The notes beneath the pieces were generated by a model. It was not told the origin of the DNA, ran no database searches, and was given only the letters and a program-made list of their open reading frames with translations. This document shows positions 39,004 to 43,806 of a DNA stretch of 64,000 nt, piece by piece. The stretch's first letter is position 1, and each line of letters begins with the position of its first letter. Position numbers and translations under genes: made by a program. This DNA is from an uncultured Comamonas sp. (GTDB lineage Bacteria; Pseudomonadota; Gammaproteobacteria; Burkholderiales; Burkholderiaceae_C): assembly GCA_947306475.1 (NCBI GenBank), contig CAMZGS010000001.1:310001-374000 (forward strand). Reading direction: 5' to 3'.

Positions 39004-40404
39004 TCAGGGGACGCTGGGGCTGGGGGGTGGTTCTGAAAACACCAGCATGGCCTGCAGGCCATCGCTGCGCCCGGGCACCGGGCTGGTGAGCACCAGCTGC
39101 GCCCCATGCTGCTGGGCGATGCTGCCCACGATGGACAGGCCCAGCCCGTAGCCCAGGCGCGAGGCGTCGGCGCGCACATGGCGCTGCTGCACATCGGTCA
39201 GCGCCGCGCTGGGGATACCGGGGCCGTGGTCGCGCACGATCAGCGCGGGCGGCTGGGTTTGCACGGCCAGCTCGACCGGGCCGCTGCTGTAGGTCAGGGC
39301 GTTGTCGATCAGGTTGCGCAGGGCAATCGCCAGGGTGTCGATGTCGCCCCGCACTGGCACGGGCTGGTCGGGGGGGTCCCAGTCCAGGCGCTTGTGGGCC
39401 TGGGGGTTGTGCCAGAACTCTTGCGCCAAGGTGGTGCCCAGTTGCACCAGATCGACGCTGTGGTGCAGCAGCGGGTGCGCGGCCTCAGCGCGCGAGAGCT
39501 GCAGCAGGCGCTCGGTGCGGTGGCTCAGGGTGTGTAGGGCCTGCAGGATGGGCTGGATTTGCTCCAGCGCAATCTGGTTGCTGCCCGCATCGCGCGCCTG
39601 ATCGAGCGCGGTCTGCAGGCGCAGGCGCACCGAGGCCAAGGGCGTGCGCAGCTCGTGCGCGGCGTTGGCGGCCAGGGCGCGCTCCACATCCAGCGCATGG
39701 TGCAGGCGCTGCAGCAGTTGGTTGACGTCGTGCGCCACCTGCTGCAGTTCGCGCGGCAGGCCTTCTAGGGGCATGGGCTGTAGGTGCTCGCTGCTGCGTG
39801 CTTGGATTTGCGCCTGTAGCCAGTGCAGCGAGCGCAGCTCGTGCCGGGCGATGGCGTGGATCAGCCACAGCAGCAACGGCAGCATCAGCAGCAGCACGGC
39901 AATCAGGCCGCTGGCGGTGCGCCAGCGGGCCTGGGTGCGCTCGTCCAGCGGGTCGGCCAGTTGCAGCCAGACACCGCTTTCAGGCTCTTCCAGGGTGTAG
40001 ATGCGGTGCTGCTCGGTGTCGTAAAAGCCCTCTTGCAGCGGGGCGGCAAATGCTTGCTCAGGCGCGGCGCGCGAGCGCAGCAGCAAGCGGCCCTGGGCAT
40101 TGCGCAGTTGCAGCGAGAGCGGCTCGGTGTAGTCGGAGCCAGGTACTTCGCCCAGGATGCGCACAGCCTGCGCCTGCGCCGGTTCGGGGGTGGGGGTGGC
40201 GACATCGAGCAGCGCGGGGTAGAGCTGGCGGTGGGCGCTTTCGACCAGTTCGGTATCGAAGTTGTGCTGAATTTGCGTGTCCACATACCAAGCCACCAGG
40301 GCCGTGCTGATGCTCCAGACCAGCACCACGGCAGCCACCAGCGGGCGCGCCAGGCGTGAGGCCAGACTGCGCGCGCGCTGGATGGAGGCCGCCGGGGTGC
40401 TCAT
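39004..40404 (-). CDS. QseC/PmrB-like sensor histidine kinase
   Basis: Membrane sensor of 466 residues: transmembrane helix 1 (LVAAVVLVWSISTALVAWYV), periplasmic domain of about 120 residues, transmembrane helix 2 (LIAVLLLMLPLLLWLIHAI), HAMP, H-box AANAAHELRTPLASVRLRLQ, N-box ALRNLIDNALTY, G1 VRDHGPGIPSAA and G2 LGYGLGLSIVGSIAQQHGA. Start ATG 40404 overlaps the response regulator stop by 4 bases. The divergent eptA gene and shared operator region suggest a PmrB role controlling lipid A modification; QseC proteins look similar, so the name is left open. Confidence 0.88.
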   Translation of the reverse strand: MSTPAASIQRARSLASRLARPLVAAVVLVWSISTALVAWYVDTQIQHNFDTELVESAHRQLYPALLDVATPTPEPAQAQAVRILGEVPGSDYTEPLSLQLRNAQGRLLLRSRAAPEQAFAAPLQEGFYDTEQHRIYTLEEPESGVWLQLADPLDERTQARWRTASGLIAVLLLMLPLLLWLIHAIARHELRSLHWLQAQIQARSSEHLQPMPLEGLPRELQQVAHDVNQLLQRLHHALDVERALAANAAHELRTPLASVRLRLQTALDQARDAGSNQIALEQIQPILQALHTLSHRTERLLQLSRAEAAHPLLHHSVDLVQLGTTLAQEFWHNPQAHKRLDWDPPDQPVPVRGDIDTLAIALRNLIDNALTYSSGPVELAVQTQPPALIVRDHGPGIPSAALTDVQQRHVRADASRLGYGLGLSIVGSIAQQHGAQLVLTSPVPGRSDGLQAMLVFSEPPPSPSVP

Positions 40405-41063
40405 GCCGGCTCCAGCCGGTAGCCGGTGCCGCGCACGGTCTGGATCAGGTTGCTGCCCAGCTTGCGGCGCAGGCGGCTGATGAACACCTCCAGCGTGTTG
40501 CTGTCGCTGCTGGCATCCCACTGGTACAGCGCTTCTTGCAGGCGCTCGCGCGTAAAAATTTGCGCCGGGCGGCTGGCCAGCACGCGCAGCAAGGCCCATT
40601 CTTTGGGGGTCAGCACCACGGGCAGGCCTGCCACCTGCACCATCTCGCGCGCCAGGTCGATGTGCACCTGGCCACGCACCACGCGCGCGCCCGCCGCGTC
40701 CTGATGGCGGCGGCGCTCAATGGCACGCAGGCGTGCCAGCAGCTCTTCGGGGTCGTAGGGCTTGACCAGGTAATCGTCGGCCCCGGCATCCAGCCCCCGG
40801 ATGCGGTCGCTGACCTGATCGCGCGCCGTCACGGCAATCACCGTCGGGCTGTCTTTGACGGCGCGCAGCTGGGGCAGCAGCGCCAGGCCATCGCCATCGG
40901 GCAGGTTCAAATCCAGCAGCACCGCCCAGTAGTGGTTGCACTGCACCAGGGTGCGCGCTTGCTCCAGGCTCTCGGCCCAGTCCACTTGGTAGTGCTTGGT
41001 GTGCAGGTAGCTCAGTACGGCCGCCGCCAGGGTGCGGTCGTCTTCGAGAAGCAGGATGTGCAT
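40401..41063 (-). CDS. OmpR-family response regulator (QseB/PmrA-like)
   Basis: A 220-residue regulator: receiver with LLLEDD acidic pair, phospho-acceptor in LLDLNLPDGDGL, VTARD and DYLVKPYD; winged-helix DNA-binding domain with LTPKEWALLRVLASRPAQIFTRERL and SRLRRKLGSNLIQTVRGTGYRL. Start ATG 41063 (MHILLLEDDRTL) is chosen; the longer ORF adds a leader overlapping the operator region. It is the first gene of the RR-HK operon and is presumed to bind the repeats at 41101-41143. Confidence 0.9.
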   Translation of the reverse strand: MHILLLEDDRTLAAAVLSYLHTKHYQVDWAESLEQARTLVQCNHYWAVLLDLNLPDGDGLALLPQLRAVKDSPTVIAVTARDQVSDRIRGLDAGADDYLVKPYDPEELLARLRAIERRRHQDAAGARVVRGQVHIDLAREMVQVAGLPVVLTPKEWALLRVLASRPAQIFTRERLQEALYQWDASSDSNTLEVFISRLRRKLGSNLIQTVRGTGYRLEPA

Positions 41064-41100
41064 GGTGGGTGCAGTGTAGGTGCTGCGATGCTGCAAGCGC

Positions 41101-41143
41101 CAGCTGAACGGCAGCTGAACGGCGACTTCAGCCAACGTTCAGC
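41101..41143. promoter_or_regulatory. Opposed 11-bp-period hexamer repeats (response-regulator operator) between RR gene and eptA
   Basis: GCTGAA occurs at 41103-41108 and 41114-41119 with a 5-base spacer (perfect 11-mer direct repeat CAGCTGAACGG x2). The opposite orientation, TTCAGC-N5-TTCAGC, sits at 41127-41132 and 41138-41143. Hexamer-N5-hexamer is the usual OmpR/PmrA box layout. One pair faces each divergent gene. Confidence 0.8.
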
Positions 41144-41165
41144 ACGCAGGCGCACAGTGCGCTCC

Positions 41166-42914
41166 ATGCCTCAAATCTCTGCTTCTTTATTGCCCCAGTG
41201 GGCGTGGCCCGTGCGCTTGCAGCGCGCTTCGCGTTGGTGGTCGGGCTGGTCGCTGGCCCCGCGCACGGTGGCCTTGCTGCTGGCGTTGTGGTGCATAGCG
41301 CTGCTCAACCAGCCGCTGTGGCACACCTTGTCCGAGCTGGCCGGTGCGACCGAGCTGACCGACCCCTGGGCGCTCAAGCGCCTGGCACTGGGGGCGCTGC
41401 TGGTGTGTGCCACCTTCTTGTGGTTCATGCTCTGGTCGTGGCCCGGCGTGCGCCGTCCGGTGTGGAGCGTGCATCTGGTGCTGGCCGCCAGCGTGCAGCA
41501 TTTCATGCTCAGCTACGGCGTGGTGATGGACAGCTCCATGGTGCAAAACAGCCTGCAGACCAACTGGACAGAGGCCCTGGCCTTGCTGACCCCCGGACTG
41601 CTGCTGCATGTGCTGCTGTACGCCGGGCTGCCCATCGCCTGGCTGTACACCGGAGTGGACATGCCCGCGCAGCGCCGGGGCTGGCTGCGCTCGGCCTTGT
41701 GGCTGCTGGCCGCGCTGGGCGTGCTGGTGGTGGGCGGCATGCGCCTGTACCGCGATCTGGCACCGCTGCTGCGCAACCACACCGAAATCCGCTACCAGGT
41801 CAACCCGCTGGCCACCGTGGTGTCGTGGAGCAACGTCACCCTCAAACCCATCCTGAAGCCGAAAAAACCTTTTCAGCCAGTGACTGCAGGCGCGGCCCTG
41901 GGGGCCACCTACCGCGCCCAGGCCGCAGGCCAGGTCAAGCCGCCGCTGCTGGTGCTGGTGGTGGGTGAGACCGCCCGTGCCGACCACTTTGGCCGCATGT
42001 ACGGCTATGCACGCGACACCACACCGCAACTGCAGGCGCGCCAGGTGCTCAGCTGGCAGCAGGTGCAGTCCTGCGGCACCAACACCATTGCCTCGGTGCC
42101 CTGCATGTTCTCGCCCGTGGGCAAAGAAGGCTACGAAGGGCGCAAAGTCGAATACGGCAACCTGCTGGACATCGTGCAGGCCGCCGGTCTTGCCGTGCGC
42201 TGGCTGGACAACCAGTCGGGCTGCAAAGGCGTGTGCGCGCGCATTCCCAGCGCCGAGGCACAGGCCATCGCCACCCCAGAGCAGCGCGCGCAATGGTGCC
42301 GCGATGGCGAATGCCTGGACCGCCTGATGGTGGCGCAGCTGGACGCGCAGCTGGCCGCCATCCCCGCCGCCCAGCGCCAGCAGGGCGTGGTGCTGGTGCT
42401 GCACCAGATGGGCAGCCACGGCCCGGCGTACTACCGCCGCTCAGCCCCCGACACCAAGCGCTTCACGCCCGAATGCGCCACGCACGTCACCTCGGACTGC
42501 AGCCAGCAAGACCTGATCAACGTGTACGACAACAGCATAGTGGAAACCGATGCCTTCCTGGCCCAGACCATCGACTGGCTGCAAACGCAGCAGCAGGGCT
42601 TTGCCACCTCCATGCTCTATGTCAGTGACCACGGCGAATCGCTGGGCGAAAACGGCCTGTACCTGCACGGCCTGCCGTACCGCATTGCCCCCCAGGCGCA
42701 AAAGCATGTGCCCTGGGTGCTGTGGCCCGGCACCCTGCAAGCGCGCACCGGCTGGCGCGAAGACTGCGCCCGCACCCAGCTGAACCAGCCGCTGACGCAC
42801 GACGCCTACTTCCACACCGTGCTGGGCATGCTCGATGTCTCCAGCCCCTACTACCAGCCCCAGCAAGACGCCATGGCCAGCTGCCGCACGCAGCGCGTGG
42901 CGGGTGTGGGTTGA
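41166..42914 (+). CDS. eptA: Lipid A phosphoethanolamine transferase, EptA/MCR family
   Basis: Inner-membrane enzyme adding phosphoethanolamine to lipid A, 582 residues. Five N-terminal helices (ALLLALWCIALLNQPLW; ALLVCATFLWFMLWSW; SVHLVLAASVQHFML; LLLHVLLYAGLPIAWLY; ALWLLAALGVLVVGG) are followed by the periplasmic sulfatase-like domain. Its motifs are VVGETARADHFG, the Thr nucleophile in QSCGTNTIASVPCMFS, HQMGSHGPAYYRR and zinc-binding YVSDHGESLGENGLYLHGLPY. Cysteines consistent with disulfides (SGCKGVCAR, CRDGEC, CATH...SDC) are present. Start ATG 41166. The divergent two-component system probably regulates it. It is chromosomal and intrinsic-looking, with no mobile flank, despite the gene fragments downstream. 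Confidence 0.93.
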   Translation: MPQISASLLPQWAWPVRLQRASRWWSGWSLAPRTVALLLALWCIALLNQPLWHTLSELAGATELTDPWALKRLALGALLVCATFLWFMLWSWPGVRRPVWSVHLVLAASVQHFMLSYGVVMDSSMVQNSLQTNWTEALALLTPGLLLHVLLYAGLPIAWLYTGVDMPAQRRGWLRSALWLLAALGVLVVGGMRLYRDLAPLLRNHTEIRYQVNPLATVVSWSNVTLKPILKPKKPFQPVTAGAALGATYRAQAAGQVKPPLLVLVVGETARADHFGRMYGYARDTTPQLQARQVLSWQQVQSCGTNTIASVPCMFSPVGKEGYEGRKVEYGNLLDIVQAAGLAVRWLDNQSGCKGVCARIPSAEAQAIATPEQRAQWCRDGECLDRLMVAQLDAQLAAIPAAQRQQGVVLVLHQMGSHGPAYYRRSAPDTKRFTPECATHVTSDCSQQDLINVYDNSIVETDAFLAQTIDWLQTQQQGFATSMLYVSDHGESLGENGLYLHGLPYRIAPQAQKHVPWVLWPGTLQARTGWREDCARTQLNQPLTHDAYFHTVLGMLDVSSPYYQPQQDAMASCRTQRVAGVG

Positions 42915-43189: not shown

Positions 43190-43625
43190 GCTGGGCCGTG
43201 GCTTTGCCGTGGTGGCAGCTGAAGTGCGGCAGCTGGCGCAGCGCAGCGCCGATGCGGCCAAGCAGATCAAGCAACTGATTGCACACAGCATCCAGCAGGT
43301 GGATGCTGGCTCTGCCCAGGCCCATCAGGTGGGTCGCACCATTGATGACGTGGTGCAGGTCATTGCCAAGGTGGCCAGCCTGATGAACGAAGTCAGCGAA
43401 GCCAGCGACGAGCAAAGCGCCGGGGTTGGACAGGTGAGTGAAGCCGTGGTGCACATGGACAACAGCACACAAAAGAATGCCGCCCTGGTGGAGGAGATGG
43501 CTGCTGCCGCGACCAGCCTGAGCCAGCAGGCGCAAGAGCTGGTCAGGCTGGTGGCCATCTTCCAGTTGCCGGATGCCGCCGAACAGCTGCCGGCACAGCC
43601 CCGCGCATTGCCGCCTGTGGCCTGA
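43174..43625 (+). pseudogene. 3' fragment of a methyl-accepting chemotaxis protein gene
   Basis: In a frame different from lysE' the sequence reads AAARAGELGRGFAVVAAEVR, QLAQRSADAAKQIKQLI and on to the C-terminus (VSEASDEQSAGVGQVSEAVV; EEMAAAATSLSQQAQELV), ending TGA 43625. This is the distal half of an MCP signalling domain of Tsr/Tar type, about 147 residues. The receptor N-terminus and hairpin tip are absent, and it does not match pilJ of this window. No start with a ribosome binding site is visible, so the fragment is presumably silent. Confidence 0.85.
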
Positions 43626-43704: not shown

Positions 43705-43806
43705 TTGGCCGCTGCGACCGAACTGACCGCCCCCTGGGCGCTCAGGCGTCTGGCGTTGGGGGCGCTGCTGGTGTGCGCCACGTTTCTGTGGCCCATGTTC
43801 TGGTTC
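43705..43806 (+). pseudogene. Internal fragment of an eptA-like gene
   Basis: Encodes LAAATELTAPWALRRLALGA then LLVCATFLWPMFW, matching residues of the intact EptA in this window (LAGATELTDPWALKRLALGA, LLVCATFLWFMLW). DNA identity is high but not complete, with mostly third-position differences. Only about 34 codons are recognisable and no start, catalytic domain or flanking eptA sequence is present. It ends just before the convergent kinase stop. Confidence 0.8.

Follow-up and report, generated by a model that had tools for sequence, protein, structure and literature searches.

The window, by which we mean the whole 64-kb stretch of DNA analysed, comes from a Comamonas genome near C. denitrificans. 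A two-component system and eptA are divergently transcribed in it, and the region between them carries a set of short repeats. The features of the locus are listed below.

39004..40404, minus strand: PmrB-like sensor histidine kinase, overlapping the stop codon of the regulator gene (ATGA); assigned from its open reading frame and model matches
40401..41063, minus strand: PmrA/BasR-like response regulator of the OmpR family, 220 aa; assigned from Pfam Response_reg and Trans_reg_C, NCBIfam and PDB matches
41073..41078, minus strand: predicted -10 of the regulator operon, TACACT; the nearest hexamer starts 31 nt away and the ATG follows after 9 nt
41104..41142, no strand: candidate mirror-symmetric operator with four half-sites, CTGAAC-N5-CTGAAC-N5-CTTCAG-N5-GTTCAG (39 bp); identified from sequence and conservation
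41104..41120, minus strand: direct repeat towards the response-regulator gene, GTTCAG-N5-GTTCAG; the better-conserved "mirror" pair
41126..41142, plus strand: direct repeat towards eptA, CTTCAG-N5-GTTCAG
41153..41158, plus strand: predicted -10 of eptA, CACAGT; the eptA-proximal hexamer starts 16 nt before it, a distance constant across the compared loci
41166..42914, plus strand: eptA, lipid A phosphoethanolamine transferase, 582 aa; assigned from P_eth_NH2_trans, Pfam EptA_B_N and Sulfatase, and start-codon spacing

The regulator contains a receiver domain (PF00072) and an OmpR-type winged helix (PF00486), both above cut-off. Its best match among 88 models was the NCBIfam PmrA equivalog (216.5 bits); as the cut-off of that model, 330, was not reached, the protein is called PmrA-like rather than PmrA. 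The nearest solved structures are those of BasR/PmrA (PDB 8jo2 and 4s04). The eptA product passes the cut-off of the NCBIfam P_eth_NH2_trans model (502.9 bits for a cut-off of 500) and carries both the EptA_B_N and the Sulfatase domain, its score with the narrower EptA equivalog model being 433.8, below the cut-off of 660. Domain and model matches therefore agree with the initial annotation, which had named the neighbours as a two-component system and eptA. Beyond eptA, a 99-bp eptA remnant (43706-43804; 85.9% identical to 41338-41436) is flanked by a short open reading frame (43209-43625) resembling the C-terminal part of a chemotaxis receptor and by a second two-component system; this remnant is probably a rearrangement scar.

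The hexamer repeats described in the initial annotation are present between the two divergent units: GCTGAA-N5-GCTGAA occupies positions 41103-41119 and TTCAGC-N5-TTCAGC positions 41127-41143, and the exact repeat of an 11-mer was found as CAGCTGAACGG at 41101-41111 and again at 41112-41122. The distance between the two sites, given there as 8 bases, is 7. When the frame is shifted by one base, to CTGAAC/GTTCAG hexamers, the central spacer also becomes N5. All three spacers then measure 5 bases, so that the four hexamers, two facing each way, lie in a single 11-bp register with the outer pairs as mirror images of each other. The repeats are real and do not reflect chance: in 20,000 rounds of dinucleotide shuffling, the 102-bp intergenic region never acquired both 17-mers at once, and the 39-bp pattern has one match in the window at up to 3 mismatches, for an expectation of 0.00. 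A scan of the 2.92-Mb genome for exact GCTGAA-N5-GCTGAA, suggested along with the repeats, returned only three sites, two of which are those of the eptA/regulator intergenic region. Single tandem sites elsewhere in the genome lie mostly within open reading frames and have no paired element, and no wider regulon is therefore claimed.

Conservation was assessed upstream of the regulator gene in 17 orthologue loci, chosen through the protein and regardless of their DNA, which together with the window make 18 protein-selected loci. The four-part pattern with a centre gap of 7 is present in all 18, with 0-2 of the 20 fixed bases changed, whereas the best score among 1,080 dinucleotide shuffles of these regions was 6 mismatches and the neighbouring centre gaps (3-6 and 8-11) never scored below 5. 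Widening the centre gap to 18 gives 2-5 mismatches, because one 11-bp step is then simply skipped. The initial annotation had named the loss of the hexamers from otherwise conserved surroundings as the observation that would count against it; the element is retained throughout this set. In a scan of 401 genomes of the family in which the centre was left free between 0 and 30, 17 genomes matched, 16 of them with a gap of exactly 7, and 12 of these 16 have the pattern at eptA. Matches linked neither to eptA nor to the PepSY system described below (L069, L072, L080, L090, L099, L102, L103 and L117) were left out. The 31 eptA loci used hereafter (class A), unlike the 18 protein-selected loci, were found by the pattern itself and for that reason add no independent evidence that the 20 fixed bases are conserved; independent evidence does come from the -10, from its distance and from the start codon, which lie outside the search pattern.

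The inverted symmetry is also what a repeat devoid of regulatory function, such as a terminator, a hairpin or an uptake sequence, would display, and in some genera the element overlaps the stop codon of a PAP2-family gene. Some matches to the pattern elsewhere moreover hold GCCGTCTGAA-like repeats, which we take to resemble Neisseria uptake sequences. Such an origin is nevertheless highly improbable for the element studied here, as the genome contains only two elements when up to 3 mismatches are allowed, the -10 lies at a fixed distance, and conservation resides in the hexamers rather than in the complementarity of the arms. Terminator or hairpin function was rejected because no terminator was found at the element, and three order-scan matches, L096-L098, which contain GCCGTCTGAA repeats and are probably uptake sequences of the Neisseria type, were excluded.

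The element follows the regulator. Among 53 genomes of the genus, it is present at eptA in all 19 that have an orthologue of the regulator and in none of the 34 that do not, eptA itself being present in 49 of the 53. At L157, L164, L165 and L167 the eptA element was missed owing to a short upstream slice; it does exist in those genomes. The element was absent from the 12 eptA loci inspected in regulator-less genomes, the best score being 4 mismatches in one locus and 8-10 in the others. Ten regulator-less Comamonas eptA loci read in detail (within L153-L169) have a single pair, TTCAG-N6-TTAAG, and no mirror pair. A mirror pair is thus not required at every eptA promoter, and since the element tracks the regulator and is absent from the regulator-less eptA loci inspected, the mirror pair goes with the PmrA-like regulator.

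The DNA-contacting residues of this regulator bear on the half-site sequence. In Klebsiella PmrA, Asn188 and Asn196 of the recognition helix read bases and Arg210 lies in the minor groove (PMC4660055). All 45 relatives of the window's regulator that were read have the recognition helix SNTLEVF(I/V)SRLR, with Asn188 unchanged and position 196 occupied by Arg; Arg210 is retained as well. An arginine in place of asparagine at position 196 would fit a G-C pair, that is, TTCA instead of TTAA, a correlation rather than a proof. Delftia retains one classic CTTAAG half-site.

The only other such element in the genome at up to 3 mismatches (C12:44744-44782, which is L065 1501-1539) has one mismatch; it is flanked on one side by a PepSY gene and a QseB-like two-component system and on the other by a gene resembling ferric reductases. 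PepSY-type loci of this kind (class B) numbered 21 and were found in several Burkholderiales families; on their PepSY side a -10-like hexamer lies at 17 nt from the pair, the opposite side also has conserved bases, and the regulators of the PepSY systems share the Asn188/Arg196 helix. PmrA and QseB cross-talk in E. coli. The QseB-like and PmrA-like regulators could likewise cross-talk here, with the QseB-like paralogue binding the eptA element too. In a stronger version, another regulator such as the QseB-like one would be the main binder at eptA and the adjacent PmrA-like regulator secondary or cross-talking; the near-identical element in the same genome and the common helix are in keeping with it. 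We consider this improbable, however: genomes of the genus that have a PepSY-type element and no PmrA-like regulator have no element at eptA, and the spacer and edge preferences differ between the eptA and PepSY classes. The adjacent PmrA-like regulator remains the more probable binder. In a genus of another family (G660, G718 and G746; L133-L139 and L092-L094), each genome has two to five such elements; a hexamer resembling CACAGT follows several of them at a similar spacing, and at least two lie ahead of a gene for a small predicted membrane protein (MTTQKP...); this suggests that the elements of these genomes form a regulon.

On the eptA side, the geometry of the promoter is fixed. When the 31 class A loci, which bear nine genus labels, were aligned on the element, they showed a -10-like hexamer at a distance of 16 nt, counted from where the hexamer next to eptA begins, with A as its second base and T as its last base in 31 of 31. 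The eptA start codon follows this -10 by 6-8 nt in all 31 loci (7 nt in the window); in L088 and L089 an earlier GTG was ignored and the ATG taken, at 6 and 7 nt respectively. As a sigma-70 start would be expected at the ATG or only a few bases away from it, the eptA mRNA is predicted to be leaderless, and this would be a conserved property across the 31 loci. A search for sigma-70 promoters at the locus found none in which both hexamers were good, in keeping with an activated promoter. Together with the co-occurrence described above, these data make it likely that eptA is controlled, by activation, by the adjacent PmrA-like regulator.

The regulator side is less regular. The TACACT hexamer is present in 15 of 20 compared regions upstream of the regulator and is missing in Delftia, and its distance, 31-32 nt in most relatives, is 19, 29, 41 or 51 nt elsewhere, in contrast to the constant 16 nt on the eptA side. 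These distances share approximately the same helical phase, a hint of autoregulation that is only suggestive, as few of the distances are independent. In the window and its close relatives the predicted -10 is just 9 nt from the ATG, and the regulator mRNA may thus be nearly leaderless as well, whereas distant relatives have longer leaders.

Loci of a different organisation bear on the purpose of the mirror pair. In four loci from other genera (L068, L075, L076 and L084), a PAP2-family gene, whose product matches a lipid A phosphatase model weakly, separates the regulator from eptA; it is transcribed in the eptA direction, and its end falls within the element. As this gene reads towards eptA, a divergent promoter is impossible there; yet all four half-sites are retained in the four PAP2 loci checked. 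The second eptA copy of another Comamonas genome, which is remote from its regulator, likewise carries a full element of its own, again with 16 nt to the -10. Retention of the mirror pair in these two situations argues that it most likely serves eptA itself, most likely through cooperation of two dimers on one face of the DNA. Autoregulation of the regulator operon, given a distance that varies on that side and is fixed at eptA, is plausible but weaker.

These observations bear directly on the idea of two independent tandem sites, one per divergent promoter, by which autoregulation and eptA control would be coordinated and the shared register would be incidental. In the window the genes are divergent and each pair does point at one promoter, as the initial annotation had it; the rough helical phase of the regulator-side distances suggests that the regulator promoter may be controlled, and the class B loci, with a -10-like hexamer on one side and conserved bases on the other, are compatible with two separate sites. 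The shared 11-bp register and the invariant N5 centre do not sit well with separate sites, and neither do the variable distance on the regulator side, the PAP2 loci and the distal eptA copy. We therefore regard independent sites as unlikely, and of the coordinated control by one regulator that had been predicted, the eptA part is well borne out (co-occurrence in 19/19 against 0/34 genomes and a fixed -10 distance) and the autoregulatory part less so. A repression or looping device, in which the opposed dimer would block the regulator promoter (negative autoregulation) while the other dimer activates eptA, finds some encouragement in the regulator-side pair, which lies immediately ahead of the predicted -35 of the regulator promoter and at a different phase (31 versus 16 nt). 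A dedicated repressor role is nonetheless hard to reconcile with the variable distance and with retention in loci that have no divergent promoter, and we hold this device to be quite improbable.

Taken together, the sequence data lead us to propose, as the probable explanation, that the adjacent PmrA-like response regulator uses the element at 41104-41142 as its operator, at which cooperating opposed dimers would activate a leaderless eptA. Phosphorylated dimers of the regulator would bind each tandem hexamer pair head to tail, in the manner of PmrA. The eptA-facing dimer, placed over the -35 region 16 nt before the -10, would recruit RNA polymerase and thereby yield the leaderless eptA mRNA, and the mirror dimer, on the stronger opposed pair and in the same helical register, would cooperate with it, the occupied form being a dimer of dimers on one face of the DNA. 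Where the regulator operon is divergent, as in the window, the same complex would probably tune the regulator's own promoter. More broadly, the element may be a rigid module of a kind not previously described, shared across genera of one family, in which mirror-image head-to-tail dimers cooperate as a tetramer to drive a leaderless mRNA for lipid A modification, and which a paralogous PepSY/QseB-like system has reused in other Burkholderiales families; we put this wider generalisation forward tentatively, at somewhat below an even chance.

If true, the proposal would provide a binding motif and a promoter geometry for how Comamonas, Acidovorax and Delftia relatives control the addition of phosphoethanolamine to lipid A, by which polymyxin tolerance can arise; our literature search found no published operator for them. 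It would also offer a clean test of cooperation between OmpR-family dimers beyond one tandem pair, a natural case in which regulator and operator changed together (Asn196 to Arg, TTAA to TTCA), and a leaderless eptA start that is conserved. The literature searches returned nothing on point for PmrA/eptA in Comamonas, Delftia or Burkholderiales, nor for QseB with PepSY, opposed OmpR-family sites or leaderless eptA.

The closest known system is the PmrA box, built of CTTAAG/CTTAAT-type hexamers with N5 between them (PMC3973317). As in the box of Salmonella and Klebsiella (CTTAAG-N5-NTTAAT at the pbgP promoter), the Comamonas element has tandem hexamers 5 bp apart with an 11-bp period, the regulator belongs to the OmpR/PhoB family and conserves Asn188, Val192 and Arg210, and the target modifies lipid A. 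However, the core is TTCA and not TTAA, the regulator has Arg196 and not Asn, there are four half-sites in a mirror arrangement instead of two, and the target is predicted to be leaderless. On its sequence, the element is thus a variant of the PmrA box, to be so called because the TTAA core and Asn196 are lacking, and predicted to function like one. The cre/blr tag TTCAC-N6-TTCAC, a single tandem pair bound by CreB/BlrA (PMC4689548), has a near-identical pentamer and the same 11-bp period, but the Comamonas half-site ends in G and not C, the target is eptA and not creD, and the regulator matches the CreB model less well than the PmrA model (136.6 versus 216.5 bits); identity with this tag was rejected on these grounds. 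The PhoB pho box (TGTCA direct repeats) shares the 11-bp period but has a different half-site and a different regulon. At pstS the pho box lies at a similarly short distance from the -10, and PhoB has an arginine at the equivalent helix position; we know of no mirror pair in a pho box. In the complex of PhoB, DNA and sigma, the -35 region is located at half-1 (PMC4660055). The type of switch seen in Comamonas is known, and its symmetric form and rigid geometry there appear to be undescribed. The CusR box, a single inverted repeat, is an operator common to divergent promoters in an OmpR-family system. The Comamonas element resembles such shared operators in that a single symmetric element separates the regulator operon from the target gene, but differs from them in that two opposed tandem dimers are proposed to occupy it and in that its symmetry is kept even where the promoters do not diverge.
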